Shown in pieces: positions 17,376 to 62,610 of a stretch of 64,000 bases of DNA. Position 1 is the first letter of the stretch. Every line of letters begins with the position of its first letter. Source of the stretch: Xiphophorus maculatus. Lineage: Eukaryota > Chordata > Actinopteri > Cyprinodontiformes > Poeciliidae. The notes under the pieces are model-generated. The model was not told where the DNA came from, did not search any database, and saw only the letters and a list, made by a program, of their open reading frames with translations. The position numbers and the translations under genes were made by a program. Location of the stretch: NCBI RefSeq assembly GCF_002775205.1, contig NC_036450.1, positions 11,923,479 to 11,987,478 on the forward strand. The letters are read 5' to 3'.

Positions 17376-20300
17376 AATACTTAATTATTATTAACATAGT
17401 AATTAAGTATTATGCATCAATACCATTATGTTAATTAAATAATTAACATAATTAATTCATACTAATTATGTTAATTATTATTGACATAATAATTATGTAT
17501 TATGTTTTCACTCTTTAAATGCACCTCATGCTTACAAAAGCTTAAGACTATGATGATGATAATATAAATGATAAAACCATAAAAACAATCAACATAGAAT
17601 GTTAAGAGCACAAACAACTCTATCTAGGAATATGCTGTTAATGAAAAAAAAGAACTGTAAAAGAACTATTCCTTGCCAGAAATATTCAGCTAACAGGTTT
17701 CTCAAGTTGTTTCATTCTTTTTCCCAAGCCTTAGAACATAAAAAGTAAAGGCTCCATCTGTGCACTGAGATAACACCAAGACAATTTACAGATTAGGCCT
17801 TGAGCATGCAGACACATGTATATGTGAAACAAAAAGGGAGAGGGGGGGGACATTAGGCAGAAAGAGTGGAAACTTTAAATACAAAACAGCTTTTGGCTCC
17901 TATCTGAGAATTTTCCGTTAACTTTTCAATACTTTTAGACGTAAAAATATTACTTTGTGTGTGTGGGTTTGGCACAATCGGTGCATGTGTGTGTGTGTAT
18001 GTGAGTGAGAGAGAGCGAGTGAGTGTCTGTGGCAGTAAGGATATCTTGGCTTCAGCACTATAACGCTGGAATTTCCTCCATCTCTGTCGCCAGGGCAAGA
18101 TGGCTACCATATGCCAGCTATTTGCACACACACCCCTACACACACACACACAAAGACCGCAGTCCTGTGAGCACTCAAGTTTGTAATACCGAAGCCAATG
18201 TAACATATAAATAAACACGTACTGAACAGCATCATTTGGAGTGGGGGTTGGGAGTTTGGATTTAGCAGAAGTACATCTGCATACAAATGCTTCTCTTTAG
18301 ACTCTGCATTGGTGTTTCTCATCAAAGAAGTACACGTCTAAAGAATTAGAAACACACGACTCAAGACAACTACTCAGCTACAACAAATTAAAGACGTACA
18401 TATTCACACTGTCAGCGAATAAACCTCCTGTAACAATTTCCTGCCATGCAATGAATTAGTTGCATAAATATCTACTGCAAGATTTTACAATCTAATGATG
18501 AACCCAAGACATCCAAACTAAAAAATATACAAGTTTAACCTGGAACTCCCAAAACATATGTCCTACTTTTCTTTTTACGTGTTGATTGGGTAATTTATTT
18601 GAACTGAAAGGTGTTAAATCCAGGATTTGATTCAGACAAGTAACCAAAACAAGGAAGCATTAAAAAGGATAAAACCAACTGGCTCATCCTCAAAGGGGGG
18701 AAAAGCTTCTATGCCATTAATTGTTGACCTATTTCAGTTAGATATTAAGGAAGAAACTCAGTGAAGCCATGCATTTCACTGAGATGTGAATAGGGCAGGG
18801 TAGTATTTGTAATATTATAGTTTAGTACTGAAATAAAATTATGGTGAAAATGTTGTGGGGACTCTAAATGACATTTATTTCCTTAAACATGTTTAAATTG
18901 TTCCACAGTACAAATTAGTCTAATTTTTAGTCAAGATGAACCAGATTTGGAATAGCCAGTTGTCCCTTGATACACTCTGACTGGTCAAAAAATATCTGTC
19001 AAAATCAGAATTAGCAAGTCAGACTTTGAAAAACCCCCAAAAATTATCAGCTCATCTCTAACGTCTGTGGTATTTATTACCAATCTATGAAGGTCTCATA
19101 CATACAGAACAGCAGCACTGCCTGGCTGACCACATATTACTAAAAACAACCAAAAAAAAAAAAAAAACACGGAAGTACAGAAACTTAGCAAGGTCTACTG
19201 ATTAATGATAATCCACAAAAAGTTAAAGTTAGACTAAGCACTCCTGTAAATGGGTCTTTAGCTTTAGTTTTCATTTTTTCACTCAGGAAAGTTAGCACAC
19301 GTTGCTCCAGTTTAGCAAGGCTGAAGCCTTTATGCCCAGAAAACCAAATGACCACAAACTGAGTTGCCAAGCAGATGTTGTCCAATGGAAGCTTCTTGAC
19401 TGCCAAAAAGAAGAAAGCCCTCTTCTTGGGTTTTAACAGTGCATCTATTGTTCCATACAACCCACAGTTTTTGTGGTGCATCTATGCTCCAGCTCTATAC
19501 TTTTTGCTCCATCGTCATGGTAAATGCAGTCTGTATGTGCACAACACTATTCACATGTAGACGCATGTCTAGTAAAGAAAATGCTTTACAATAAAAACTG
19601 TTTCCCGTTCTCCTCACTGTTGGTCTTGGAAAGATAAAGTTGAGTCTTTGCCCAGCCTTATTTGTCACACTTCCAGTTGTTTAAGCTTTCGAGCAAATTT
19701 AGGTGAGTAATTGTTCATTTTCTGAGGCCATTTTACTGACTTAAGATCAACACACATCTGCTTTACATCAATGTCTAATTCTCTCATCTTTCCCAATTTG
19801 AGGAACAAAGAAGGATTAACACCCTCAGGTGTCCCTGGGCGGTGAATCTCAAAGGCCTGTTGGCACATATACTCGGGAACTAAGTATTACATTCACATGC
19901 CATGGTAAGCCATCACACATAAAATCTACCAGAAGATAATCACAGTATTTATATATAAAAAATAAAAAATAACCAATGAATTTTCCTAAACATAAATCCA
20001 TCATGTTAGGATCATTTCACAAAGCACATAAAGTGAAAATCTCTTCAACTGTTTCAGCATGTACTCTGACTTTAGTAATATTTACAGTCACAATAAAAAC
20101 AAATTATATAGATTTTTTATACAATCGGTATGCATTAAGACTTTTTGGGTGTACTTAGCTGAACAAATTCTACCCTATCTTATATATGCCACAAGAAAAC
20201 AGAAAGGCATGGATTACTAATCGTCGTAAGGCTTTCTAATACGCATTAATCAATATATTACCTACACACTTTGATCACCTAAAAAAAAAAAGTGAAAAAA

Positions 20301-21674
20301 TGTTTCACTTACCAAATACCAAAAGGTAAACTTTAACTGAACATGTCTTCATACTCTTTTGAAAAGGAACCATCACACATCAGCAAATAAATACAATAGA
20401 AAAAAGCGAGAAATGAGGAGTTTCCACAAGAGAAATTGAAACCATAAATCGCCAGAAGATGTGATTTTATCGTTCTTGCTTAACTTTATCCGTTTTACCC
20501 GTGATTAATTGCCTGAAGTTCATTCAACGGAAATCAGCTGGGAGTATTAGAATTTTACCGTAAACCACATTTTATTAGTGTTTAGGAAAATACCATAGCA
20601 ATGGTGTACTGGGGGTGAAGAGACTTCCAGCCATACGCACATTGACCCAAAAGTCAACCTCTCTCTGCTCTGACAAATCCCAACCCTCACAACAGCATCT
20701 ATTAGAATAAATTGGCTTTCTGTCTCCTTATATTGTGAGGTTTGTTTATGCTGCTTGTTCAGCGTGTGAAACGCAGCAGAACCGTTTGACTCAGAGCAGC
20801 TACTGGCCAAAAGGAAGATGATGGTCCAACACACGTCTGCTCTGCGTGAGCCAATGACAGGGTCTTTAAACACTACTCCTCCACATCTGCTCTCTGTTAT
20901 CCCCCCAAAAAAGTTGCACACAGAGGCACATATACAGCACAATATGATTTGTGATCATCACCATCAGCTACAGGTTTGACAATGAAATCTAAAAATATTT
21001 AAATAAAAAAAACCTTTTCTTTGTATTTAATAGTAAGCAAACAAAATATCTGTTTGCCTATATCTGAAAATGTATGAAATGCATGAACAGACATGCTCAG
21101 AAAAGCTCACACATATTGCTTGCTAATCTTGCCTGATGTTAAACTCAAAGGCAATAAGGTTAGTTAGCTTGGATCAGTTCTGCTCTGCCATGCTCCAACA
21201 ATGATCTGCTGGGTAAGCTGTGAGTGTCTGAATCTATGTGTGTGCCTGTGCCCGGGTGTGCATACTAGCACCATAGACTGGCGCCTCTCTACTGCTGGAA
21301 GTAATTATAAAGACATAAAGCAGATAGTTGAAGATTGCTGTTTGATCCAACACTGAGACGCTCTCATGTGCATAAACATGTACACATAATATTATAAACT
21401 GCATTGTTTCCACTTCAGAAAAATTAGGTATTACTTCCATTGACACTATATTATTAGTGTAAAAACTGTGATGACAGAATTGTTCTGAGGTTTTACCCAA
21501 CAAAACAAAAATGTTGAGCTGTCTAAGCCCCGACATGTCAGATGCCAAGTTTTTGTCATAATGCCTAAACTGCAACACTGTGTGCTCTCTGGTTTCCATA
21601 TTATGTCAACCACTACCTTAGAAATGAAAATGTACCTAATGCTGGACTATGACCTTTGCCCAACAGTAACAAAG

Positions 21675-36357: not shown

Positions 36358-36822
36358 TCAGTCTCTTAAGCAATTCAAGTTTCTGAGTGTCTTATTCAAT
36401 GACATATAGCCTCGTCTGCAGGATGCAGGGATTCCTCCAGCCTTCCAGGCAGAAGAAAGAACTTCAGCAAAAAAGCAGGCACATTTGGATGAAATAAGCT
36501 TTCTCAAATGGTGAGGCACGCCGAAGTGGAGCTGCTGCTTTTCAGTCAGTGGATGTGGTAAGGGAATTTGATCAGGATTATTGTGGAGCACCTCTCTTTG
36601 GATAATTTCCTGGCATGTTTTGTTGGGAGGAGACCCAAAACCCAAACTTCCAGGGGTGAGTATCTCTTCTAGCCAGTAAGCACCTTGGGTCCACAAGAAA
36701 TATCTGGATAGTGTCACTGGGTTTAGGTCACTGCCACAACCCCATCTCAACGGTATAAGCAGCTTCAAGACAACAGGTGTAAATGGGCTGATTAACTTTT
36801 CTACAGCTGACATAAAACTCAA
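36358..36822 (-). CDS. 154-codon open frame of unknown status
   Basis: This is the longest open frame in the window. It opens at TTG; the first ATG gives MSAVEKLISPF and the frame ends in NLNCLRD. I recognise no family. It contains several cysteines, KLISSKCACFF and a proline-rich middle, but no signal peptide or transmembrane segment. A chance frame of this length somewhere in 64 kb of such DNA is not improbable. What makes it worth recording is that it lies 400 bp downstream of, and on the same strand as, the candidate secreted-protein gene at 37.2-38.0 kb. No splice signals tie the two together. Confidence 0.2.
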   Translation of the reverse strand: MSFMSAVEKLISPFTPVVLKLLIPLRWGCGSDLNPVTLSRYFLWTQGAYWLEEILTPGSLGFGSPPNKTCQEIIQREVLHNNPDQIPLPHPLTEKQQLHFGVPHHLRKLISSKCACFFAEVLSSAWKAGGIPASCRRGYMSLNKTLRNLNCLRD

Positions 36823-37221
36823 ACTACAGATTTCAGGGTCTGGCCAAACGTCTAGCTTTTTTTTGACAAATAGTTAGTAATGAAATGATCATTGTTAAGC
36901 TTCATAGCTTTTTATTGACTGTGCCTTTTTGTGTTTTACTACGACAAAGACGTTCATCACCAAAATGAGTTACAAGTGATCGAATGTCAGCTACAAATTA
37001 CTTCCAGCATGTTTAAGATTTTGTTTTGCCTCTTTTCTCTCATCTTTCAAAAATTAAGCCCGCAGTCTGAGACGAGTAAAAAATTATTTATATGGATTAT
37101 AAAAACAGCTGGGTAACCCTGGGAAAACTCAAATTCACCAATCTTGAATTTATCGTATGTGCACAACAGAAAGAAAATGAAAGACATAATTCAAGAACTT
37201 GGAATTAAAATCTGAAGCTAA

Positions 37222-45970: not shown

Positions 45971-46760
45971 TGTGTAGGAAATTTGTTTTTGCCACTTGTC
46001 TCCACGACATTGTGCTTTTGGACAGTACCCATTGCTTACAACATGTGAAATATGTAAAATAATCTGCCAATGGAACAAGTACTTTTTCATCAATATGAAG
46101 GAATTATTATTATTGAGAAGAAAAACAAGCCTCTGTATCTTCCTGAAAAGTGTTAAGTTAGTTTTGTTTTATTTCAAGTGTGCTAAGATATTTGCAATAG
46201 AAACTAGATCAAAAATACTTGGTAAGATTTTGTGTTTTTGCAGTGAGCTCTCTCTGAACCATAACAGACCGGTAGCTTTCACATCACTGCAGACGCCACA
46301 CCAATCCACCAATTGATAGGTAAAATCTAAGTTCTCTTAATTACTATGTGAATCAATCTTTCTCCATTGATTCAATGTGTGTACAGCAACAGGTTTTTGC
46401 TCAACTACAATGAAAAAGCATCCCTCCGCATTTGTTAGCTAAAATAAGACATATGACTATGTAAATGTAATAAACCTTTCCTTTCTTCTTAGAGTTAGGT
46501 AATAAATTATGTACAGTGTTGAAAAATAATCTTTAAAATGTATATGAGGCCAGGAATCCTGATACCTGTATTCTGCAGAGCCGTGTAGGCACACCCTTAC
46601 AGTCATGGCACTAACAGATGACATGCCCACATATACGACATGAAGTTTCCTGAATAACTGCAGGGAAACATCACCAGACATCCACTCTGCAGTTTCCCTC
46701 CAATGCTCACCAAGGCTGCTGATGGCTTAGAAGTATGCATGGTGTCACTCCTAGGCAGTA

Positions 46761-46800
46761 GGTGGGTGTGGTCTTCACTGACTGGTTGAACATAATGAAG
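46761..46800 (+). promoter_or_regulatory. cystatin A promoter motifs
   Basis: ggtgggtgtggtc, a CACCC/KLF-type box, is followed 20 bp later by cataatgaag. The corresponding TATA-like sequence in copies B (54922-54931) and C (61857-61866) is cataataaag, so copy A has one change in the TATA-like core. The CACCC box is the same in all three copies. Confidence 0.4.
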
Positions 46801-47068
46801 TCTGAATGCTGACACAAACACATTCACTCAGAGAACACAGAAGCTGCTTCTTCTGCTCCATTTTCCCCCAGCTGAAGCAACATCTATCGATAAGGTTGGT
46901 GTTGGACGTTTTACAGTTACTAATCAATATTTAACTGTTTTTCTTCTGTTCTGTTGTATTTAATAGTTTCTTTTTTATGTTTCGTTCTGTTAAAATGGAC
47001 CTGGACTCATCAGAATCTTACAAACGTCCTGGGATCGTCTGTAGCTGACAAGTTGTTGGAAAGCAAAT

Positions 47069-47156
47069 ATGTCTCTGCCATTGTCCTTGCTGATATGTCT
47101 GTCAGTCTTCCAGCTGTGTTTGGGAGCTCAGCCTGAGAAGAGACACATTAAAGAAC
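47069..47156 (+). CDS. cystatin A exon 1 (signal peptide)
   Basis: Opens at ATG with the hydrophobic leader and ends PEKRHIKE plus one base before gtaagt (phase 1). Several earlier short ATG frames lie in the presumed 5' UTR. I chose this ATG because it alone gives the signal peptide, and it is shared by copies B and C. Confidence 0.85.
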
Positions 47157-49313
47157 GTAAGTAGAAATATGGATGCAATGTATCCTGAATAGACCTGTTT
47201 AGTTTCGTAACACAATAAAATGGTTAAAATGTAAGCTAAATTTAGAGTTTGATGAGTTTCAACTCTTCCGCCATGAACACACAATCATGACTATCAGTTG
47301 GGAAACAAGTCAAACATCATCAAAACATAGCTTTGTGTTTTCATGTAAACATTCTGACACATTTTCAAATGTAAGAGATAAAATATTAAATTATGTTTTT
47401 TTTTCTTTTGTAAAAGAACAAACTGTATTAGATAACAAAGCAGCTAGTTTGTTTCCATCAGTCTGTGAAACCCTTTAGTGATCACAGAGAATCTAAGTTA
47501 ATGTAAGATAGGTAGCAAAATTGTCTTTAAATTTAAAGACAATAATATGATTCTGCAAAAAGAAAGGACCTGTTGTTCTAAAACTGTGTGGCTTGCTGAC
47601 TTCATGGTCAAATACATTGTGTGTTTGTGGACTTATTCCACAGCTGATGACTCCTCACTGCAGTACGGTTGAGTACAGTGAGTCAGAAGTTTTGCCTCAG
47701 CTACAAATCAGATTAATTTATCATTGTCAAAGTGCTGTGTATTTTGGCAGATGGAACGCTAGTTTTGGAAAAAAGAAATAAGATGGTGCAGCTAATTAGC
47801 AGGACTTTAAATTGAGTGTAAAAAGGATAAAGTTTTTAGTAATCTAATACCTTATTATGTAGACACAATAAGGTATTAGACTACTAATACCTTATTTTAT
47901 TAGTAACACAATAAGGTATTACTAATACAATAAAATGGGACCAATTCCTTTGAGGTTTTACCTTAATGAAATCATACATGTGGTGATGTTAATTTGTGCA
48001 GTTAAACAAATTCAAATCCAAAGAAAAACTTGAAGAAAAAGCCCTTTTGGTAGTCTAATACCTTACCATGTCTTAATAGGTTTGGGATTTTACTTTAGTG
48101 GAATCACATATGATTTGTGCAGTTAATCAAATTCAAATCCAAAATAAAGCTTTATGAAATGTCTTGTTTGCTTCTCTGTTCCAAAGTTCTGATTAGCAAA
48201 AGTGCTGAATAAAGAAGTACAAAGTTGGATGTGATCAACACCCAGTTCTTCAGATTGCCATTAGTCATGAGAATTTGTTTTGGACTGGGTGGGGATGGAA
48301 CATACAAGAGCTGCTAGCTGCCAGTACAAACAAGTCCTTCCACCTTTAAGAAGGTGGAAGTCACAAGAATTGTGTGAATTTGAAATAATCATGTCAACAC
48401 CAGTTATATGTATGAGAGAATTCACAACATGAATAAAAAAAGTGGTAAAGTCAATGGAAAAAATACTCACAGGATCCAATCAAAACACTCCACTAGAAAA
48501 TTTACAATTCTCCTGTAGCTCTGATGGTTTGTTTATGGTTGTTGTCCTGCTGTAAGGAGATCATTTTAAATTTCCTATTTCATTGTGTAAAAGAGATTCT
48601 ATGATGTGAAATAAAGCCACTGCACTGCTGGTCACAATGGGCAGAATGCTGAGAATCCGTCTTGCCCTTTCTTTGACCCTACAAACTGATTCAAGCTTGA
48701 TAATTTTTGTTTCTATTCTGTGATCTTTTTTTAAATTTTTTTTTTATTTTTACTGATATACTTTATGTTACAGTCAACATACCTTTGTCAATTTTGTCAT
48801 CTTTTAGAGGGTTGGACTGAAAAACGTCCTGAGTCAAAAGATGTTCAGAAGGCGGCTCAATATGCTGTAGAAATGTTCAACAAAAAAGTAAAGAACAAGG
48901 TGTTCTTCAAGCTGATCTCAATTACCAGTGCTAAATCCAAGGTTGGACTGATTTTCCTTAAAACAATATAATGTACCCTATTAAAACATACTTATAATCA
49001 CTGTTTTATCTGGTTCTATCTGCAGGTAACCAATAGGATCAACTTTAAAATCATTGCAATCCTCAGAAGTACCATATGTCCTAAGATGAAAACCATTGAC
49101 TTGAGAAACTGCATTTTGGGCAAAGAGGTAAATCTGTTCACCCTCTGTTCTTTATAGAACCATTAAGAAAATGTGTCAATTTCCATTCAACACATATTGT
49201 CGTCTTCTCTTTCACAGCAACTAAAGTGCCAGTTTGTTGTGACTTTAGACCCCGGCAACAGCAAATATTACCTGAAATCCAAGAAATGTCACAAAGTTGC
49301 AAAGAAGGGTTAA
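47069..49313 (+). CDS. type-2 cystatin-like secreted protein, copy A (cationic)
   Basis: Four exons (47069-47156, 48808-48941, 49026-49127, 49218-49313) join in phases 1, 0 and 0 to 139 residues. The signal peptide is [19 protein letters not shown]. The mature protein has [12 protein letters not shown] (the cystatin helix) and four cysteines at 92, 103, 112 and 132 with type-2 cystatin spacing. Introns after SAKSK and after LGKE are at the two classical cystatin intron positions. The inhibitory loop QxVxG is replaced by KVTNR and the C-terminal PW hairpin by DPGN, so papain-type protease inhibition is unlikely. About 24 Lys and 5 Arg against 9 acidic residues in the mature chain give a net charge near +20. 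Exon 2 starts 18 nt later than in copy B. I see no frame-breaking change. Confidence 0.85.
47157..48807 (+). other. cystatin A intron 1
   Basis: 1,651 nt, ending in catcttttag. It contains an inverted AATACCTTATT/AATAAGGTATT cluster (47840-47930) that is absent from copy B. From about 47460 on it is nearly identical to B outside that cluster. A minus-strand 72-codon frame (48261-48479) is repeated unchanged in B but is intronic and not taken as a gene. Confidence 0.75.
48808..48941 (+). CDS. cystatin A exon 2
   Basis: 134 nt encoding [18 protein letters not shown] through SAKSK, with donor gttgga. The acceptor used by copy B (tctttcag) is destroyed here by a 6-bp net deletion. The next tttag restores the frame. 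Confidence 0.8.
49026..49127 (+). CDS. cystatin A exon 3
   Basis: 102 nt, phase 0 at both ends, encoding [13 protein letters not shown] through NCILGKE with the first disulphide pair (Cys92, Cys103). Confidence 0.85.
49218..49313 (+). CDS. cystatin A exon 4 and stop
   Basis: 96 nt encoding [16 protein letters not shown] through CHKVAKKG and TAA, with the second disulphide pair (Cys112, Cys132; the 20-residue spacing is the canonical one). Confidence 0.85.
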   Translation, partial: QLKCQFVVTLDPGNSKYYLKSKKCHKVAKKG

Positions 49314-49458
49314 TTCTTTTTTACAGTGTCAAGATAACCTGAGATCGTCCCATTATTTCCATGCTGAATATTTTAGGTAAACAGTCACAATACATGAAGT
49401 TACATTTATAATTAATTACACAAAGTAGCATCTATAAGCAAGGGTATAATCAAACCTC

Positions 49459-49464
49459 AATAAA
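49459..49464 (+). terminator. cystatin A polyadenylation signal
   Basis: AATAAA about 145 nt past the stop, followed by a GT-rich stretch (gaggttgtgtg). The same arrangement is seen in copy B at 57382-57387. Confidence 0.7.
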
Positions 49465-49469
49465 ATCTC

Positions 49470-51054
49470 TGAGGTTGTGTGTTTCTTTTGTCTCATGCAA
49501 ACTTTACCTTTAAATTCTATTTCTTTTTTAATTTAATCATAAGAAATCATAGTCAGGCAGAGAGGGAGAAAGTTGCCAAGCCATGAAACAGGAACAGCAG
49601 GCTTTCTGATAAGACGAAGAAAGTTTCTAGCCTGCAGATTTATAGAAATATGTGAGAGACTATTCCTTATTTCAATGCAAGAAAGTTTTAAAGGCTGAAG
49701 TCTAAACAAATTGAGTAATTTAATAAAACTTAAAGCAAAATACTTATATTGATAATCTTGAAAGAATGAACAACTTTGGTTTCAAAAAATAAGAATAGTG
49801 GATGATTCCTGTTTTCTTGTCAGAAGAACACCTATAATTACTCACATGATGATTATAATAAAAGTAACTAATAAAGCATGGTTAACATAATATTATAAAT
49901 GACTGCTAAATCAGAAGCTAGAGAGGTTATAGATGTGATTTTGATAATGAACTTGAAATGACGTAAAATGTGTAACTGCAATTAAAGATCATTGATGTTG
50001 TGTTGGAGGTAGATAGTAGGTGAAGGATTATGGAAAAGAGGAACTGAAAGGAGAGCAGAGATGACCAACACCTCAGAGTTAGCTGATTTGGAAACAGATT
50101 ATTGTAACTCAAACTGTTGAAAGAAAAAGATTGTGCAGGTAAAGGGTTTAGGGTGACTTTTGAACACCAGGACATGAACACAGACATCATTGTCTCTAAG
50201 ACAATGATGGATATGAGATCATCTATCCAAGCAGACAGCCAGCAAAACAAGCATGACAACAGTGCCAACCAATACAAGTTTATATATAGGGTGGAGAAAT
50301 GCTATAAAAACACTATAAAATGTCAATGCAAAAGAGGAACCTTTGGTTCTATTCTCTAGGCGGCTTTGAGCTGCAATTGAGATGGACAAAGAATTCTGCA
50401 GCTGAAGAAGATCCAGGGCCACAGAGAGCTGAAGACCAACCCGTTAGCCTTGCAACATGTAGCCTCAAAATGGACTTCTCTCATCATCTAAATTCAGACC
50501 AATAAACGTTGGTGTAAGCTTTATCTGTTTTTTGTGACATTATGGACATTTGTAGTGTTTGTTTTAACACTACCCTAGCCCAGTGATGGTGCAATAATAC
50601 ACTCCAACCAATTTTCTGACAGAAGACTAAACTCCATCCAGATTCCATTTGGAAAATCTATCTGCTTTTATGGTGACTAAATGTAATTCATATTGGTTAC
50701 AACATTAGGGGAAATTTATCCTCACTGTTTTATAACATGAGGTTGTCGGGCAGGCAGTTTTAAAATTGTTTCTCTTTGTTGCTAAATAGATACTTTTTAA
50801 ATTTCTATTTTAAAAGTTCTGGAAGACTATATCTGTTTTCTTTCCACTTTATCGTTTCACTTTTGCCACTTTGTGAATAAATTGCTTAATCTCCCAACGT
50901 CACACTGAAGTTTGTTTACTGTAATGTAATTAAACCTGTAAATGTTCCACAGATGCTAATACTTTTGCAAGAGTATTAACATCTGGTGTTGGTACCTGAT
51001 ACAAACACAAATCCAAGGAAGTTATCAGTAAAAATTAAGAGAATCAAAAAACAT
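49470..51054. other. downstream flank of cystatin A
   Basis: Non-coding. Parts match 57470-60400 of unit B (for example around 50500-50930). Segment about 50120-50490 is specific to unit A and has only short chance frames. Confidence 0.55.
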
Positions 51055-51437
51055 GTAGGTTAAAATGATGTCTGGCTCCACCAAGAGACCAACCAATGTA
51101 ACTGCACCTTTAAGCACATCTGTGAGAGATATACTGAAAATATTAATACAGTGTCGATGCAGCACTTATAAAGTTAAAAAAAATGTTTGCCCCAGTGGCA
51201 ACATAAAATCCTTTTTGTGAATAAAATCGCCCTCTTACTTGTTGATGACCCTTTGAATCTCTCTGTTTTCCTCCTCTCTGAGTTTGAGCAGAAACTGATC
51301 TAAGATGGGTAGCTCCAAGTTCAGATACTGAGCAACCTGAACACAGGAAAGAGGAAACGTGGTGTTTTAAGAAAAATATGACTGACTTTCACTCAAATAT
51401 AGCTTTAATATTGAATAAATACAAAATATTCTACAAA

Positions 51438-51480
51438 AAGGGCTGCACAGTGGTGCAGCTGGTAGAGCAGTTGCCCCCAA
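51438..51480 (+). repeat. truncated tRNA-like dispersed repeat head
   Basis: ggctgcacagtggtgcagct, then ggtagagcagttgcc, is the start of the very common fish repeat with a tRNA A-box-like segment. The rest of the element is missing and unit-B sequence resumes. Confidence 0.55.
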
Positions 51481-52309
51481 CATGTCAATTCTTGGTCTTT
51501 GAGCCAAACAATCCACACCCTGCAAATGTGATCTCAACTACTATTGCAAAAGGCAAATCTGTGCACAAAACATGGACTTTGATGAACTGCAAAACAGTCA
51601 GTAGACTAGAAAATGTCTACTTTGTCCTACAGGGAAGTTAAGACAAATGTGTTTGTTCTTTAGCGTTAATAAATGTATCTTTTTTATCTAAAGAATTCCC
51701 ATTTAGATTTTTTTGCGACATCTAGGAAATCTATTGACCAGAAAAGAAAATGCATGAATATTCTGTCTTATAGGGTCACTAAATTTTACATCCCCAAATC
51801 TTGAACTAATTGACAACTTGTAGTTAATCTTCATAAAGCAATTGAAAGGTAGCAAACTGTGATCAACATAAAACACTAATAAGAAAATAATGGATTATTA
51901 TCAGTTGTGAAGCAAGTTTTTTTTTTTTTAATAAAAGATCAACATTAAAAAGTCATTAGCCATAGCTGTACAAACAAAGTCGTGGAGACAAATGGCAAAA
52001 ACGTGTTTCCTGCTCACAGGAAATGTGTTTTTGCCATTTGTCTCCACGATCTTCTGCTTATGGACAGTACAGTACCCATTACTCGTAACATGGGAAACAT
52101 ATCTTGTTATGAGTAAAATCATTTGCCAATGGAACAAGTACTTTTTCATCAATATTAAGGAATAATTACTATTGAGAAGAAAAAAAACAACCCTCTGTAT
52201 CTTGCTAAAAAGTTACTTTTAAGTTAGCTTTGTTTTATTTCAAGTGTGCTAAGATATTTGCACTAGAATCTAGACCAAAAATACTTGGTAATATAACAGT
52301 TATGGGGCT

Positions 52310-53469
52310 AGGCAGCTAACTGTGGCTACAAAAGCAGCACCAGAAGATTGTTCTTTAAAATAAGAGCCCGAGTTGTGAATGAAAAACAGGAGGCAGTGCT
52401 TTTAATTTTGGGGTATATACACTAGTGATTTGAATAAAAACAGACAATTAAAGTAGCACAATGAGAGACAAGAATGAATTAATTCCAAAATCATAAAGTC
52501 CATTGTCCTTTTGCTAGCTCGACGTCTTCAGATCCAGATGAGGATCTGGCCCAACAGGAGAAAAAAACCCCGACCTAAAAGGTCAGAAAAATCCATTAAG
52601 TGTTTTATCAAAACACAAACAATTATGTACAAACATATAAAAGGAAATAAATATAAAATTTGGACATTTGGTTTATGCATGTTAAATGCAAATTCAATTA
52701 TTAAATTTATAATAATTTTGACAAGATCAAACATTTCAATAATCAGGTTACAAATTAACCATAATTTAAATAAAGTAAAACAAAAAGTGTATCAATCAAT
52801 CATATATCAAGCTTATCAATTTAAAGTTATCATTCAAAAGTTAAAGTGCACTTTCAAAATATCAATCAAGAAAAATAAAATAAATTGTCAAATACTCAAG
52901 TAGAGCGAGAGAAAAAAACAAAAATATATTTAATAAATAAATATACTGCGCAATATCAAACTTAAAAGTGTAGCTACATTCCGTTCTGATCAATTTCACC
53001 GTCATTTTAAAGTGCCAGAACACGCACAAAATCAGCAAACAAGCTACCTCTCCAAAGAGAGTGGGCCGTACTTAACCACAATCAGCTGTGACAGAATCCA
53101 GGTGACGTTCCAGGAAGTGATGGCCATCTGACGTCAGACTTCTAGGCGTGTACCGAGTAAAAAGGGGGCGTGTCAGATGAAGCTGCTTGTATCGCCTTGC
53201 TGAAAACCGCGTGACTGACAACAAGCTATGCCTCACATTGCATGGGTCACGTGACTGCTTCAGTTTGAGTGTCGGTTTTCAAAATAAAAGCATGATGAGC
53301 CGTGCAACTTCATGGGTTGATGTATTTGATCGCGCGTCAGAGGAGTATTTGTTTTCAGCAGTGGCCGAAATAAAAGGAACCTTGACCAACATAGTTCATG
53401 TGTATTATTAGTTGTGATGATGGCACTCTTCAAAATGTAATGTTTGTTACCGGTTATCTCAATTTTTGA
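52310..53469. other. inserted DNA in unit B, unassigned
   Basis: Unit A has no counterpart. It includes an AT-rich part (52600-52960) and a higher-GC part (53000-53430) with a TGACGTCA palindrome at 53129-53136. No gene is supported. Confidence 0.45.
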
Positions 53470-53575
53470 TTATGGTATATTTTATGATTTTATATTTGTG
53501 TGTTTTTATTATGTAAAGCACTTTGAAACTGCATTGTTGCTGGAATTTGCTACACAAATAAACTTGATTGAAATG
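53470..53575 (+). repeat. LINE-tail type dispersed repeat fragment
   Basis: agcactttgaaactgcattg, then gctacacaaataaacttgat, is the reverse complement, with differences, of the repeat at 23114-23178. It is the 3' end form of a common teleost repeat. Confidence 0.6.
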
Positions 53576-53824
53576 GAGCCAGCAAGAGGAAAAACATCTG
53601 ACATCTGAATACTTTGAGATGATCGCTCACAAGATTCTTAAATAAAAATAATTAACCACTTCACCTCAAAAATTCTCACCTCCTTGAAATTTCCACTATT
53701 TCTTTACTCTGCAAAGATAGGCTATTTGTGTAATTCAGACTATGCAGTTTTCCATCAGCAACAATTGTTGCTCAGTATAAAACCAACATTTTCACTAACA
53801 TAATCATAATAAAATGTATTAATT

Positions 53825-53945
53825 CTACGGATGCTCCGATCAGGTTTATTGCTGCCGATTCCGATTCCGATACCGATACCGATCACCCATGAGGTCGATC
53901 TCTGCCGATCACCTGAATTGGTTGTTTAATTTTGCATTAGTTATA
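53825..53945. repeat. dispersed repeat rich in CCGATNCCGAT
   Basis: ggatgctccgatcaggttta followed by repeated ccgattccgata units is a familiar fish repeat head, usually attributed to hAT-like non-autonomous elements. The ends are not clear. Confidence 0.5.
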
Positions 53946-54278
53946 AATGATATTATGTGATCTGGCAAAATGAAAAAATTATCTGGTAATAAATTCACCT
54001 AATTAACGTAAACATGCAACATACTTACAGGCACGATACAACAGCTACTCAGTCAAAAGAACAACTGAAAAACCTGCAACCAGTTAAACATTTAACAGTA
54101 ACGTTCTCTGTACCATAAATTATACATGAGTCAAATAAGTCTCACAGCACTTATTATATCAAATAATGTCTAGTAAAAGAAGAAACATTCCTTCAAAGTC
54201 AAATGCAGATTACATCAAAATAAATAATCCTAAATTACTAAATCCAAACTGCCTGAGAGCGGCTAGCTGATTAATGCA

Positions 54279-54455
54279 GGTTCTGCTTCTCTGGCCTCAG
54301 CTCTGACCTCCAACCCCTCCCATCTCAAAGAGTTGGACCTGAGCTACAATCATCCAGGAGACTCAGGAGTGAAGCTGCTGTCGGCTGGACTGAAGGATCC
54401 ACACTGGAGACTGGAAGCTCTCGGGTATGGAGGAACCTGCTGCAGGAGCAGAGAA
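54279..54455 (+). pseudogene. orphan NLR leucine-rich-repeat exon fragment
   Basis: The frame reads [20 protein letters not shown], then [15 protein letters not shown] and [13 protein letters not shown]. This is the stereotyped terminal LRR of the large fish NLRC3/NLRP-like (FISNA-NACHT) receptor family. Only one repeat is present. The upstream conserved text is degraded (GSASLASAL), the downstream frame runs into unrelated codons, and no NACHT or other LRR exon lies in the window. It is best read as a transposed or duplicated exon remnant inside unit B. Confidence 0.75.
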
Positions 54456-54889
54456 GGTCTGATAGAGGAGGAAGAGGGAGAAATGTCTTTAGTCAGTCTG
54501 CTGGGAAACATTTAGTTTGAAGCTAAATATTAGCTAATATTTCCATGTTTGCTGCTGAAAGAGACCGATGGTCTGACCAAAAGAGAATTTTTGAAGAATT
54601 TTAGTTTTTCAGGAGGCAAATCAAAACTCAAAGAATATTGTCTGCCCCAACAAGCACTGCACTCCAAATACACTAAAACAAATGTCTATCGTTCTCCATT
54701 CACTCACTGTGTACAGCAACAGATTTTTGCTCAACAATAAAAAAGCTAATTGTAGGCACACCCCCACAGACATGGCACTAACAGATGACATGCCCACATA
54801 TACAACATGAAGATTCCTGAATAACTGCAGGGAAACATCACCAGACATCCACTCTGCAGTTTGCCTCCAATCGTGTCACTCCCACGCAG

Positions 54890-54931
54890 TAGGTGGGTGT
54901 GGTCTTCACTGACTGGTTGAACATAATAAAG
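54890..54931 (+). promoter_or_regulatory. cystatin B promoter motifs
   Basis: The conserved CACCC-type box ggtgggtgtggtc is followed by cataataaag, a TATA-like element. The presumed start region (attcactcagagaac) lies about 30 bp downstream. Confidence 0.45.
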
Positions 54932-55202
54932 TCTGAATGCTGACACACACACATTCACTCAGAGAACACAGAAGCCGTTTCACTCTTCCTCTGCTCCATT
55001 TTCCCCCATCTGAAGAAACACCTATAAGGTTGGTGTTGGACATTTTACAGTTAGTAATCAATATTTAACTGTTTTTCTTCTGTTCTGTTGTATTTAATGG
55101 TTTCTTTTTTATGTTTTGTTCCTTTAAAATGGACGTGGACTTTTCAGTATCTTGGGAAGTTCTTGGGATCGTCTGTAGCTGACAAGTTGTTGGAAAGCAA
55201 AT

Positions 55203-55290
55203 ATGTCTCTGCCATTGTCCTTGCTGATATGTCTGTCAGTCTTCCAGCTGTGTTTGGGAGCTCAGCCTGTGGAGGAAGTCATTACACAAA
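55203..55290 (+). CDS. cystatin B exon 1 (signal peptide)
   Basis: 88 nt ending CAQ-type codon plus one base before gtaaga (phase 1). The first 22 codons equal those of copy A. The last seven, which begin the mature chain, differ at most positions (PVEEVITQ against PEKRHIKE). Confidence 0.87.
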
Positions 55291-57236
55291 GTAAGAAGAG
55301 ATATGAATGCAATGTGTCCTGAATAGACATGTTTAATTTTGAAACATAATATAGTGTGAAAAATGTAAACATATCAAAACAAAGTTTAGAGTTTGATGAG
55401 TTTCAACTGTTCAGCCATGAAAATCATTGCCAACAGTCGAGAAACAAATCAAACATCAAAAGGTAACTTTGTGGTTTCATGTAAACATTCTGACACATCG
55501 TCAAATGTAAGAGCTAACTTACTAAATCATGTTTTCTCTTTCTTTTTTTAAAAGAACAAACTGTATTAGATAACAAAGAAGCTAGTTTGTTTCCATCAGT
55601 CTGTGAAACCCTTTCGTGATCACAGAGAATCTAAGTTAATGGTAACAAAATTGTCTTTAAATTTAAAGACAATAATATGATTCTGCAAAAAGAAAGGACC
55701 TGTTGTTCTAAAACTGTGTGGCTTGCTGACTTCATGGTCAAATACATTGTGTGTTTGTGGACTTATTCCACAGCTGATGACTCCTCACTGCAGTACGGTT
55801 GAGTACAGTGAGTCAGAAGTTTTGCCTCAGCTACAAATCAGATTAATTTATCATTGTCAAAGTGCTGTGTATTTTGGCAGATGGGACGCTAGTTTTGGAA
55901 AAAGGAAATAAGATGGTGCAGCTAATTAGCAGGACTTTAAATTGTATGTATGAAGGGTTCCTTTTTGGTAGTCTAATACCTTACCATGTCTTAATAGGTT
56001 TGGGATTTTACTTTAGTGGAATCACATATGATTTGTGCAGTTAATCAAATTCAAATCCAAAATAAAGCTTTATGAAATGTCTTGTTTGCTTCTTTGTTCC
56101 AAAGTTCTGATTAGCAAAAGTGCTGAATAAAGAAGTACAAAGTTGGATGTGATCAACACCCAGTTCTTCAGATTGCCATTAGTCATGAGAATTTGTTTTG
56201 GACTGGGTGGGGATGGAACATACAAGAGCTGCTAGCTGCCAGTACAAACAAGTCCTTCCACCTTTAAGAAGGTGGAAGTCACAAGAATTGTGTGAATTTG
56301 AAATAATCATGTCAACACCAGTTATATGTATGAGAGAATTCACAACATGAATAAAAAAAGTGGTAAAATCAATGGAAAAAATACTCACAGGATCCAATCA
56401 AAACACTCCACTAGAAAATTTACAATTCTCCTGTAGCTCTGATGGTTTGTTTATGGTTGTTGTCCTGCTGTAAGGAGATCATTTTAAATTTCCTATTTCA
56501 TTGTGTAAAAGAGATTCTATGATGTGAAATAAAGCCACTGCACTGCTGGTCACAATGGGCAGAATGCTGAGAATCCTTCTTGCCCTTTCTTTGACCCTAC
56601 AAACTGATTCAAGCTTGATAGTTTTTGTTTCTATTCTGTGATCTTTTTTAAAATTTTTTTTTATTTTTACTGATATACTTTATGTTACAGTCGACATACC
56701 TTTGTCTTTCAGAAAAAGTGCATCTTTTAGGGGCTTGGACAGAAAGACTTCCTGAGTCGAAAGATGTTCAGAAGGCGGCTCAATATGCTGTAGAAATGTT
56801 CAACAAAAATTCAAAGGACGAGGTGTTGTTCAAGCTGGTCTCAATTAACAGTGCTAAGTCCCAGGTTGGACTGATTTTCCTTAAAACAATATAATGTACC
56901 CTATTAAAACATACTTATAATCACTGTTTTATCTGGTTCTATCTGCAGGTAACCAATAGGATCAACTTTAAAATCGACGCAATCCTCGGAAGAACCAAAT
57001 GTCCTATGATGGAAAACCTTGACTTGAAAAGCTGCATTTTGGATGAAGAGGTAAATCTGTTCACCCTCTGTTCTTTATAGAACCATTAAGAAAATGTATC
57101 AATTTCCATTCAACACATATTGTCGTCTTCTCTTTCACAGCAACTACAGTGCCAGTTTGTTGTGACTTTAGACCCCGGCAACGAGGAACATGAGCTGAAA
57201 ACCAAGAAATGCCATGAAGTTGCAAAGAAGGCTTAA
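55203..57236 (+). CDS. type-2 cystatin-like secreted protein, copy B (near-neutral)
   Basis: Four exons (55203-55290, 56713-56864, 56949-57050, 57141-57236) join in phases 1, 0 and 0 to 145 residues. The signal peptide core is identical to copy A. The mature chain reads [20 protein letters not shown], then [12 protein letters not shown], with cysteines at 98, 109, 118 and 138 in cystatin spacing. Introns fall after SAKSQ and after LDEE, the classical cystatin sites. The first loop is QVTNR: Gln80 and Val81 are kept but the Gly of QxVxG is Arg. PW is replaced by DPGN. About 19 basic and 19 acidic residues make it nearly neutral. Likely secreted; the inhibitory role is doubtful and the true target is unknown. 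Confidence 0.87.
56713..56864 (+). CDS. cystatin B exon 2
   Basis: 152 nt after acceptor tttgtctttcag. A second acceptor, catcttttag, ends at 56730 and would shorten the exon by exactly 18 nt in frame. That second site is the one copy A must use. Confidence 0.85.
56949..57050 (+). CDS. cystatin B exon 3
   Basis: 102 nt encoding [18 protein letters not shown] through [15 protein letters not shown] is close to the VELGRTTC of canonical cystatins. Confidence 0.87.
57141..57236 (+). CDS. cystatin B exon 4 and stop
   Basis: 96 nt encoding [20 protein letters not shown] through CHEVAKKA and TAA. Confidence 0.87.
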   Translation, partial: QLQCQFVVTLDPGNEEHELKTKKCHEVAKKA

Positions 57237-57601: not shown

Positions 57602-58477
57602 TGTAACATAGTTAAAATGATTCAGGTTAAATCCTGATAAAATGCACCATCTGCTGGTTAAACGGGGTATTGCATTCACCCTAGAAAGAGCGGGGTATTA
57701 CGGGTAATCCTCAGAGCCATGAGGATCACTGTCGAGGTAACGTGTCTCTGCGATGTGATAAAGAAATATTATTTATAAAATATGTGTATGGTTTTCGTTT
57801 TTGCATATTATTGAAATATGCTTAATTCATGTTATGCTAGCTTTGCTATTATATTGTTTTTGTTGCGTTATAGACATGTTTAGTTCGTGTGAAAGTGTGG
57901 CGGGATTTTCCCACGCGGTAACATTATGGCTCCTCCTTGCAGGAGTCTTTCATGCCAGAGACTGACTTTACCTCGGTGCCCATGTGTGAAATGCAGGTAT
58001 GTTTCACTAAATCTCTGTAGCAGATGGCTAATATAAGGCAGTTTTATATTAATAGTTTTATATAGATATGGTTAATGTTTTTGCATTGTTCCAAGATGCA
58101 AGTTTGTATAAGCTAAAATATAAAAATGGCATCTAGTAAATAAAATGTCAGCATTTTATTTTATTTTTCAGAGCGTTTTAATTAATTGTGTTACTTTCTT
58201 TAAAAAGGACACTCACTGGTTGTTCCTTTGATGTAAACCAAATCCACTATACAATCACTGTAATTTTCAATTATTTTATTTTGGTTACTGTATGATGGGT
58301 AATCCTGAGAGCCATGAGGATCACTGTCGAGGAGTCTTTCATGCCAGAGACTGACTTTACCTCGGTGCCCATGTGTGAAATGCAGGTGGAGAATTAAAGA
58401 AAACAACTGATGCCAGATTGAGTTCCTTGTCGTTCATTTCTGCACCAAGAGAAGCCACCAGAACCGCATAGGCCACA
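57602..58477 (+). mobile_element. 876-bp solo-LTR-like insertion with 4-bp target duplication
   Basis: Comparison with unit A shows a clean insertion. A reads ttcaatgcaagaaag; B reads ttcaatg, then tgtaacatag...aggccaca, then aatgcaagaaag. The ends are TG...CA and the duplication is aatg (57598-57601 and 58478-58481), as for an LTR retroelement reduced to one LTR. It codes for no retroviral protein. Inside are two copies of a short sequence, one with a GT-AG intron (57737-57942) and one without it (58300-58385). The orientation is given by that intron. Confidence 0.7.
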
Positions 58478-61133: not shown

Positions 61134-61856
61134 AGGTTAAAATGATGTCTGGCCCCACCAAGATGCCAACAAATGTAATTGCACCTTTAAGCACATCTGT
61201 GACAGACAGATGAAAATATTAATGCAGTGTCGATGCAGCACTTGTAAAGTTAAGGATTTTTAACGTAGCTCCCATTAAATTTCATTCTACTTAATTTTAG
61301 ATGGTTTCCCGACATTTGAATGTTTAATCAAGATGACCCAACATGTCAATTCTTGGTTTTGAGCAAAACAATCCACACCCGGCAAATGTGATCTCAACTA
61401 CTATTGAAAAAAGTTATAACTGTGCTACAAAGGTGGACTTTGATCTGCAGGCTTTCTACTGTCAGTACACTAGTACATTCCCACTACTTTGTCCTAGAGA
61501 GAAGTTAAGACAGATGCGTTTGTTCTTTAGCATTTATAAATGTACCTTTTGTCTAAAGAATTCCCATTTAGACTTTTTGGCAATGGCAACAATAGGTTTT
61601 CTACACACATGAAATGCGTTTTTGCCACTTGCCTCCAAAATTTTGTGCTTTTGGACAATACCCATTGCTCATGACATGCCCAGACATGCCCACATATACA
61701 ACATGAAGTTTCCTGAATAACTGCAGCAGGGAAACATCACCAGACATCCACTTTGCAGTTTGCCTCCAATGCTCACCAAGGCTGCTCATGGCTTAGAAGT
61801 ATGCATGGTGTCACTCCTAGGCAGTAGGTGGGTGTGGTCTTCACTGACTGGTTGAA

Positions 61857-61908
61857 CATAATAAAGTCTGAATGCTGACACACACACACACACACACGCA
61901 CACACACA
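61857..61908 (+). promoter_or_regulatory. cystatin C TATA-like element and expanded CA repeat
   Basis: cataataaag at 61857-61866 is followed by a CA tract of about 30 bases (61879-61908). Copies A and B have only a few CA units at this place, so the spacing between TATA-like element and start region is about 18-20 bp longer in C. Confidence 0.5.
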
Positions 61909-62155
61909 TTCACTCAGAGAACACAAAAGCTGTTTCACTCTTCCTTTGCATTTTCCCCCAGCTGAAGAAACATCTATAAGGTTGGTGTTGGACTTTTTAC
62001 AGTTGTAATCAATATCTAACTGTTTTTCTTCTGTTCTGTTGTATTTAATAGTTTCTTTTATTCATGTTTCATTCCTTTAAAATGGACCTGGACTCATCAG
62101 AATCTTGCAAATGTCCTGGGAACGTCTGTAGCTGACAAGTTGTTGGAAAGCAAAT

Positions 62156-62243
62156 ATGTCTCTGCCATTGTCCTTGCTGATATGTCTGTCAGTCTTCCAG
62201 CTGTGTTTGGGAGCTCAGCCTGAGAAGAGATTCCTTACAAAAC
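62156..62243 (+). CDS. cystatin-like copy C, exon 1 only
   Basis: Same 22-codon signal peptide as A and B, then PEKRFLTK and one base before gtaagt (phase 1). The exon is intact. No exon 2, 3 or 4 follows in the remaining 1.75 kb, although copies A and B need only 1.4-1.65 kb to exon 2. Similarity to their intron stops at about 62374. Either intron 1 has received an insertion and the gene continues beyond the window, or the copy is a truncated pseudogene. Confidence 0.6.
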
Positions 62244-62374
62244 GTAAGTAGAGATATAGATGCAATGTGTTCTGAATAGACCTGTTTAGTTATGTAACAC
62301 AATAAAGTGGTGAAATGTAAGCATTTCAAAACTAAGTTTAGAGTTTGATGAGTTTTACCTGTTCAGCCATGAAC

Positions 62375-62610
62375 ATTAACAAAGCACAATTACAAATTAC
62401 AAAAAACGCTACAACATTAACAAAACGGAAGAGGTATATCCCAGTGAGACTTGAGAAATCGCTGATTGGACAACAGGTAGGAATACGTATACGCTGAGTC
62501 CTACTTACGTCGCCGCCATCTTGAAAGTGGCAGTGGAGAGAACGTGCTGTGTGGACTAGTTTCAACCATTTTACAGTACAAAGTGTACCCACTGCCTTTA
62601 TCCTTCGCAG
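62375..62610 (+). promoter_or_regulatory. promoter-like segment with YY1 motif and splice donor
   Basis: Foreign sequence within intron 1 of copy C. It contains gccgccatcttg (about 62513-62524), a consensus YY1 site in the position and orientation typical of start-proximal elements, then about 85 bp ending CTTCGCAG|gtaaga at 62610. This looks like a non-coding first exon on the plus strand, of a gene or of a mobile element. No start codon context or coding exon follows in the window. Confidence 0.35.

Follow-up and report, generated by a model that had tools for sequence, protein, structure and literature searches.

Tandem duplicates that exchange sequence and still differ in their proteins have been described in primates: in the red/green opsins and in colobine RNase1/RNase1B, noncoding DNA is homogenised and coding differences are protected (PMC3924837), and for the opsins selection was inferred to limit conversion at a functionally important exon (PMC3924837). 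Here we describe a tandem pair of genes, copies A and B, predicted to encode secreted cystatins in Xiphophorus maculatus (assembly GCF_002775205.1, contig NC_036450.1, positions 11,923,479 to 11,987,478 of the forward strand; this whole stretch of 64,000 nucleotides is referred to as the window). Their introns are nearly identical and their exons are not. We consider it probable that the pair is old, that gene conversion has homogenised it, and that its coding islands have been kept apart by selection. The analysis covers one genome with one allele of each copy and uses sequence data alone.

Layout and divergence of the cystatin pair

Copies A (47069-49313) and B (55203-57236) lie in tandem on the + strand, and each is a complete four-exon gene with GT-AG introns and an open frame of 139 codons (for B in the gene model of an earlier reading of this DNA from its letters and open reading frames, here called the sequence-only reading). 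Aligned with each other, the copies differ at 9/88, 16/134, 15/102 and 13/96 sites in exons 1, 2, 3 and 4, and a recount of introns 2 and 3 returned the same 0/84 and 1/90 differences that the sequence-only reading had given. Intron divergence lies below exon divergence, as that reading had proposed to check: exons 2-4 together carry 44/332 differences, compared with 15/1294 in the homogenised noncoding DNA, which comprises most of intron 1 and introns 2 and 3 (p = 8 × 10−20). This noncoding DNA, about 1.3 kb in length, is about 1% diverged, and the exceptions to the noncoding likeness are the 5′ part of intron 1 and the flanks (36/449 in the 5′ flank, 46/384 in the 3′ flank, and 29/456 and 30/343 farther 3′). 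The features of the array are as follows.

47069..47156, + strand: copy A exon 1, signal peptide and mature start EKRHIKE; matches X. hellerii P0003
47157..47430, + strand: copy A intron 1, 5′ part, not homogenised with B (41/266 differences)
47431..48789, + strand: copy A intron 1, 3′ part, homogenised with B (7/382 in 47431-47820, 7/747 in 48042-48789)
47829-48040: A-only 212-bp insertion in intron 1, after 47828, with 4 differences at its edges; absent from B
48790..48807, + strand: dense block in A, 7/18 differences and a 6-nt gap; acceptor and six codons (KVHLLG in B) apparently lost
48808..48941, + strand: copy A exon 2
48942..49025, + strand: copy A intron 2, same as B (0/84)
49026..49127, + strand: copy A exon 3 (15/102 differences from B)
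49128..49217, + strand: copy A intron 3 (1/90 from B)
49218..49313, + strand: copy A exon 4 and stop
55203..55290, + strand: copy B exon 1
56713..56864, + strand: copy B exon 2, predicted, with upstream acceptor TTTCAG (start in the sequence-only reading, 56731)
56949..57050, + strand: copy B exon 3
57141..57236, + strand: copy B exon 4 and stop
62156..62243, + strand: copy C exon 1, EKRFLTK; third array member, counterpart of X. hellerii P0009

The longest identical run between A and B is 273 bp, compared with a maximum of 174 in 2000 permutations, and five clusters of at least four differences were found in 47431-49346, four of which overlap coding sequence while one lies at the insertion edge. 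To assess coding clustering, the differences were shifted circularly along the A-B alignment, and the shifts that reached the observed coding count were counted. Over 46580-49699, 0/2848 shifts did so when the likely exon 2 of B was taken as coding and 44/2848 under the 139-residue model; the corresponding values were 2/2015 and 95/2015 for the gene body alone, and 2/1694 and 4/1694 within 47431-49346. The homogenised noncoding count leaves out the insertion edges (47821, 47822, 47827 and 48041) and 48781-48807 (7 differences), and the near flanks leave out 49314-49344 (no differences). At the 5′ end, 95/95 aligned bases of the 5′ untranslated region and signal peptide are the same across A, B and C, and the signal peptide core, already described as unchanged, is the same in A and B at 19/19 residues.

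The exons that the sequence-only reading had assigned to A and B stand, except that a start of B exon 2 at 56713 is likelier than its own and that it missed the third copy, C. The start at 56713 would most likely yield a 145-residue protein with KKVHLLGAW, as annotated for X. hellerii P0001, to which B is nearest (90% identity in the 139-residue model and 94% in the 145-residue model); for A and X. hellerii P0003 the identity is 96%. A KVHLLG-like segment is kept in the B-like proteins and in seven related fish (chosen by hand among the 120 hits listed, as were the 20 rows of our protein tree). It is absent from A, from X. hellerii A and C, from Gambusia A, and from an A-like protein of P. latipinna and a C-like protein of P. 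formosa; Gambusia C has a similar N-terminal segment, LHFLAS. Comparison of 48790-48807 with 56713-56730 suggests that A lost this N-terminal cystatin segment through a change of the splice acceptor. The A-only insertion, perhaps a small mobile element, contains an inverted self-match at 47830-47893 (58 nt at 86%). Copy C is represented at 61683-62375 by exon 1, the sequence upstream of it and the beginning of intron 1, and its homology to A and B ends near 62375; exons 2-4 of C were not found in the window, where the DNA from about 62375 to the end has no match to A or B.

Replacement and silent change between the copies

In exons 2-4 (codons 30-139), 32 codons change the amino acid and 5 are silent-only, with 12 and 0 in exon 3, in agreement with the earlier counts by eye of about 31:5 and 12:0. 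The zero in exon 3 is a count of codons and not of sites, and two multi-hit codons in this exon imply silent steps. Because about four fifths of the sites in codons 30-139 change the amino acid (262.5 amino-acid-changing and 67.5 silent sites, about 4:1), the 32:5 ratio of codons does not correspond to a ratio of replacement to silent rates (dN/dS) of about 6. By the Nei-Gojobori method (NG86), dN/dS comes to 1.28 in exons 2-4 (Fisher p = 0.39) and, with exon 1 included, to 1.68 (p = 0.15); for single exons the values are 1.00 (exon 2), 1.67 (exon 3) and 1.38 (exon 4), and exon 1 is without silent change. Codon-based maximum likelihood (ML), run under four settings, put the ratio at 1.8-2.1 (p = 0.08-0.15) in codons 30-139 and at 2.4-2.7 (p = 0.01-0.03) when all exons were pooled, and in a neutral simulation the probability of at most 5 silent-only codons was 0.12-0.19 and 0.03-0.07, respectively. 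The dN/dS check that the sequence-only reading had proposed returned values above 1, from 1.28 to 2.73 depending on the method and the exons pooled, but exons 2-4 alone were not significantly above 1, and its claim that 31:5 is the signature of strong diversifying selection is not supported as stated (NG86 1.28, p = 0.39). Positive selection on the A and B proteins is plausible but unproven from these comparisons. A mean dN/dS of at least 1 is unusual among proteins that are kept open, and such a ratio in two frames kept open suggests that some sites may be under positive selection.

The silent sites of the exons resemble the flanks. Silent-only changes (5/68) are more frequent than differences in introns 2 and 3 (1/174, p = 0.007) or in the homogenised noncoding DNA (15/1294, p = 0.002), and when silent changes are counted by NG86 (7.7 in about 68 sites) the comparison with introns 2 and 3 gives p = 0.0002. 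At the intron rate, 0.8 silent changes would be expected where 5 are seen (P of at least 5, 0.0013), and the silent-only codons do not differ from the near flanks (123/1068, p = 0.43). Because the silent sites match the flanks and not the introns, the exons look as if they had been left out of the homogenisation rather than homogenised and then changed. The exons retain old divergence; the introns are the young part, and the anomaly lies in them.

The reading that we favour starts from what is observed, namely the copy structure, the mosaic divergence, the flank-level silent sites of the exons, the intact frames and the split in X. hellerii. In this scheme A, B and C would go back to tandem duplication of a single gene for a secreted type-2 cystatin, the A-B pair being old, and more recent interlocus gene conversion would have overwritten the block with the signal peptide, introns 2 and 3 and the greater part of intron 1, together with short pieces of exon adjoining the homogenised introns. 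The conversion of introns that the sequence-only reading had allowed for is supported by the 15/1294 differences in noncoding DNA. Selection, rather than chance, would have bounded the tracts: those erasing the coding islands would have been purged because the basic A and the neutral B perform different jobs, the benefit presumably lying in the basic/neutral split of a secreted cystatin-fold binder. In the islands, silent and replacement sites alike would consequently carry the old divergence, and some extra replacements would have moved A up and B down in charge.

Both reading frames have been kept open. No indel is present in the 420 sites that are coding in both copies, compared with 11 in 1068 flank sites (p = 0.04) and with 4.3 expected in the shared coding sites (P = 0.013), and no stop is present where 2.8 would be expected (P = 0.06); the 6-nt gap at the acceptor block falls in coding sequence of B only. 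To this extent the proposal of selection on the proteins is borne out. Relaxed constraint, that is, near-neutral drift of one or both copies at a dN/dS of about 1 with an intron mosaic produced by chance conversion, would fit the NG86 values, which do not differ significantly from 1, the absence of canonical inhibitory motifs from A and B, and the 95/2015 gene-body shifts that match the coding clustering under the 139-residue model. We nevertheless regard it as very unlikely, given the missing indels and stops, the four cysteines kept in both copies, a directional charge change (23/28 lineage-specific columns, p = 0.0009) and the coincidence of the coding islands with exons. A pseudogene or an assembly chimera was also considered, and is disfavoured by the intact frames without indels in shared coding sites and by the A-like and B-like proteins of X. 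hellerii, which share most of the differences.

Several points weigh against old coding islands preserved by selection. The tract limits were set after the data were seen. Flank divergence is uneven (29/456 and 30/343 in the far 3′ flank), and the exons exceed some flanks (p = 0.003 for the far 3′ flank, 0.02 for the 5′ flank and 0.06 for all flanks pooled), which favours a real acceleration. In codons 31-139, 24 fixed A/B differences are common to the window and X. hellerii (a count that omits the columns before residue 31), and Gambusia A equals B at 20 of these 24, so that only 4 differ. The protein tree, from which the X. couchianus hybrid is omitted, groups Gambusia A and B with Xiphophorus A (81/84 support) and does not separate A-like from B-like proteins across genera. 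Because of this tree and the 20 Gambusia sites, either the exons too were converted at times or the differences are younger than the pair.

These Gambusia sites, by which many replacements look private to Xiphophorus, also fit the strong form of the sequence-only reading, in which the entire gene body was recently converted and the exons then went through a burst of positive selection. Such a burst would further explain the ML ratio of 2.4-2.7 over all exons, replacements at residues invariant in the seven related fish (K60, V66, G88 and K111), and replacement sites that are slightly faster than all flanks (37/263 compared with 182/1867, p = 0.04), a difference that the silent sites do not show (p = 0.68). 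We judge it unlikely, since exons 2-4 have silent changes above the intron rate and are by themselves not significantly above a dN/dS of 1, either by NG86 or under the four ML settings. As a caution, replacement-to-silent codon counts between duplicates can mimic extreme positive selection if homogenised introns are the oddity.

Charge, relatives and predicted function

The charge split between the copies is as large as the sequence-only reading had stated, about +20 in A and about 0 in B, with directional replacements. Past residue 19, net charge is +20 for A and 0 for B (145-residue model), and for the whole protein it is +20 for A and −1 for B (139-residue model). After the signal peptide, X. 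hellerii A has +20 and B +1, and in Gambusia affinis the A-like protein has +15 and the B-like protein 0, with the split partly at residues other than those of Xiphophorus. Poecilia latipinna has +8 and +4, the assignment of A in Poecilia being uncertain; the one protein of Poeciliopsis prolifica has +11, and C-like proteins have +15 to +17 in three genera. Because the seven related fish proteins lie at +7 to +12, A appears to have risen and B to have fallen: measured from the reconstructed state, A stands 8 charge units higher and B 7 lower, and the 24 fixed differences are derived in A at 8 sites, derived in B at 7 and unclear at 9. Charge differs at 10 columns common to Xiphophorus and Gambusia, with the same sign in 9, and among lineage-specific columns A is the more positive in 13/15 for Xiphophorus (p = 0.007) and 10/13 for Gambusia (p = 0.09), which pool to the 23/28 given above. 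The charge split seems older than both genera and seems to have been extended separately in each, provided that exon 1 and splice form assign the proteins correctly to A and B.

Some basic patches of A may have come from C by short gene conversion and not by point mutation, an account that would be compatible with selection-bounded islands and that we consider quite unlikely. At 38 residues that differ between A and B, states other than the majority state of the seven related fish are shared with X. hellerii C at 10 positions in A and 3 in B (binomial p = 0.09). Residues 54-64 of X. hellerii A match C at 9/11, where the patch of Gambusia A is different, residues 123-138 of A and C match at 15/16, and the C-like proteins are themselves basic in three genera. 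Exon 3 of A, however, is unlike C (20/34 differences), and the likeness of A and C in exon 4 is partly ancestral; the comparison was made at the protein level, since exons 2-4 of C are absent from the window.

An X. couchianus protein, P0002, has A-type exons 1-2 and B-type exons 3-4 joined at the intron 2 position and a charge of +7; this database protein model may be a prediction error. In the window, A and B show no difference in intron 2, the intron at whose position the two parts of P0002 join.

By prediction, A and B are intact secreted type-2 cystatins. Both match the cystatin domain PF00031 above the curated cut-off (A 2.7e-12, B 2.6e-15), both conform to the type-2 fold, in which, as in solved cystatins, a beta sheet wraps around a helix, and both have an N-terminus that by eye is hydrophobic and predicts a signal peptide. 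Among 32 proteins C92, C103 and C112 are invariant and C132 is nearly so, and A and B keep all four. Inhibitory cystatins carry the motifs QxVxG in the first hairpin and PW in the second. At the place of QLVSG in chicken cystatin, B has QVTNR and A has KVTNR, and both have PG where PW is seen in cystatin M and chicken cystatin. An N-terminal segment with Gly before the fold occurs in B as VHLLGAW (145-residue model, predicted splice); A is without it. A legumain-inhibiting cystatin has Asn39 on the helix-strand loop (PMC6109925); A and B have lysine aligned there (K58 in A numbering), followed by Asn in A and Asp in B.

The diverged surface comprises the N-terminus, the helix-strand turn and the beta3-beta4 loop. 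Two of these places are where cystatin E/M binds legumain, and the two papain-facing hairpins are nearly unchanged: replacements affect 10/16 residues in the helix-strand turn and beta3-beta4 loop, compared with 1/10 in the papain-facing hairpins (p = 0.014, for structural zones picked after the data were seen). Legumain inhibition was considered as the function behind this crowding and was set aside, as the key Asn is missing. An antimicrobial role is possible for the basic A and C, by analogy with CRES, for which antimicrobial activity has been reported (PMC3504038).

As a further proposal, the identical introns might act as a shuttle, with conversion and crossover among A, B and C reassorting exon modules of different charge. 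Taken as one joint claim, which includes a rebuilding of the basic/neutral pair genus by genus at partly different residues, it has in our judgement a slim chance of being right. The selected property would then be charge on the legumain-facing side of a cystatin without papain-binding motifs, and X. couchianus P0002 would be one exon-module hybrid.

Elsewhere in the window, a short open leucine-rich-repeat-like piece lies between A and B at 54300-54425 (PF13516, 8.3e-05, 22.8 bits, curated cut-off 23.4), which we would guess is perhaps a remnant of an NLR-type gene. Downstream of B, 57695-57998 and 58290-58387 contain segments repeated about 400-600 bp apart (43 nt at 93% and 58 nt at 100%). 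The open frames 17853-18296, 20547-20954 and 36358-36873 (− strand) had no Pfam match at E 0.01.

Comparison with known systems

No description of this cystatin array was found among the open-licence PMC titles and starts of abstracts that were listed, a coverage that is not evidence of its being unpublished. Several homologues (for example P0008 of Poecilia formosa) carry the UniRef name of zebrafish si:busm1-57f23.1, a predicted secreted protease inhibitor, and the likeness is by name; expression of the zebrafish gene is described from cones and from the brain and spinal cord of larvae (PMC10382231). Unlike cystatin E/M, CRES/cystatin-8 and chicken cystatin, A and B are without QxVxG and PW, and A is without the N-terminal segment.

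The locus offers a compact natural case, about 10 kb encoding a protein of 140 residues, in which gene conversion and selection seem opposed and in which the divergence islands would mark the residues that selection acts on. The charge split in two genera, in both directions from related fish, leads to a concrete hypothesis of division of labour in a secreted family.

In Tigriopus GOT1p1/GOT1p2, as in the fish pair, islands of divergence persist despite conversion, and conversion yields novel combinations (PMC3728101); those genes are aspartate transaminase paralogues compared among copepod populations, unlike our single fish assembly (PMC3728101). The likeness to colobine and howler-monkey RNASE1/RNASE1B lies in a small, secreted, basic protein that was duplicated, with a drop of charge in the duplicate (PMC6937293), and for the colobine genes also in noncoding divergence below coding divergence, where parallel change and conversion are disputed as explanations (PMC3924837, PMC6937293). 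Unlike in RNASE1/RNASE1B, both fish copies appear to have moved, to +20 and 0, from relatives at +7 to +12. Like the human red/green opsins, A and B are tandem duplicates with conversion-homogenised introns and, in the opsins, the divergence peaks at a functionally important exon (PMC3924837); in the fish pair the protein is small and secreted and every one of its coding exons holds islands, and the introns were compared within one genome. RNase activity has been measured in the RNASE1 system, whereas the fish cystatins, in this respect also unlike the opsins, are known from sequence. By analogy with the opsins and RNase1, the fish pair may represent a further case of gene conversion bounded by selection.

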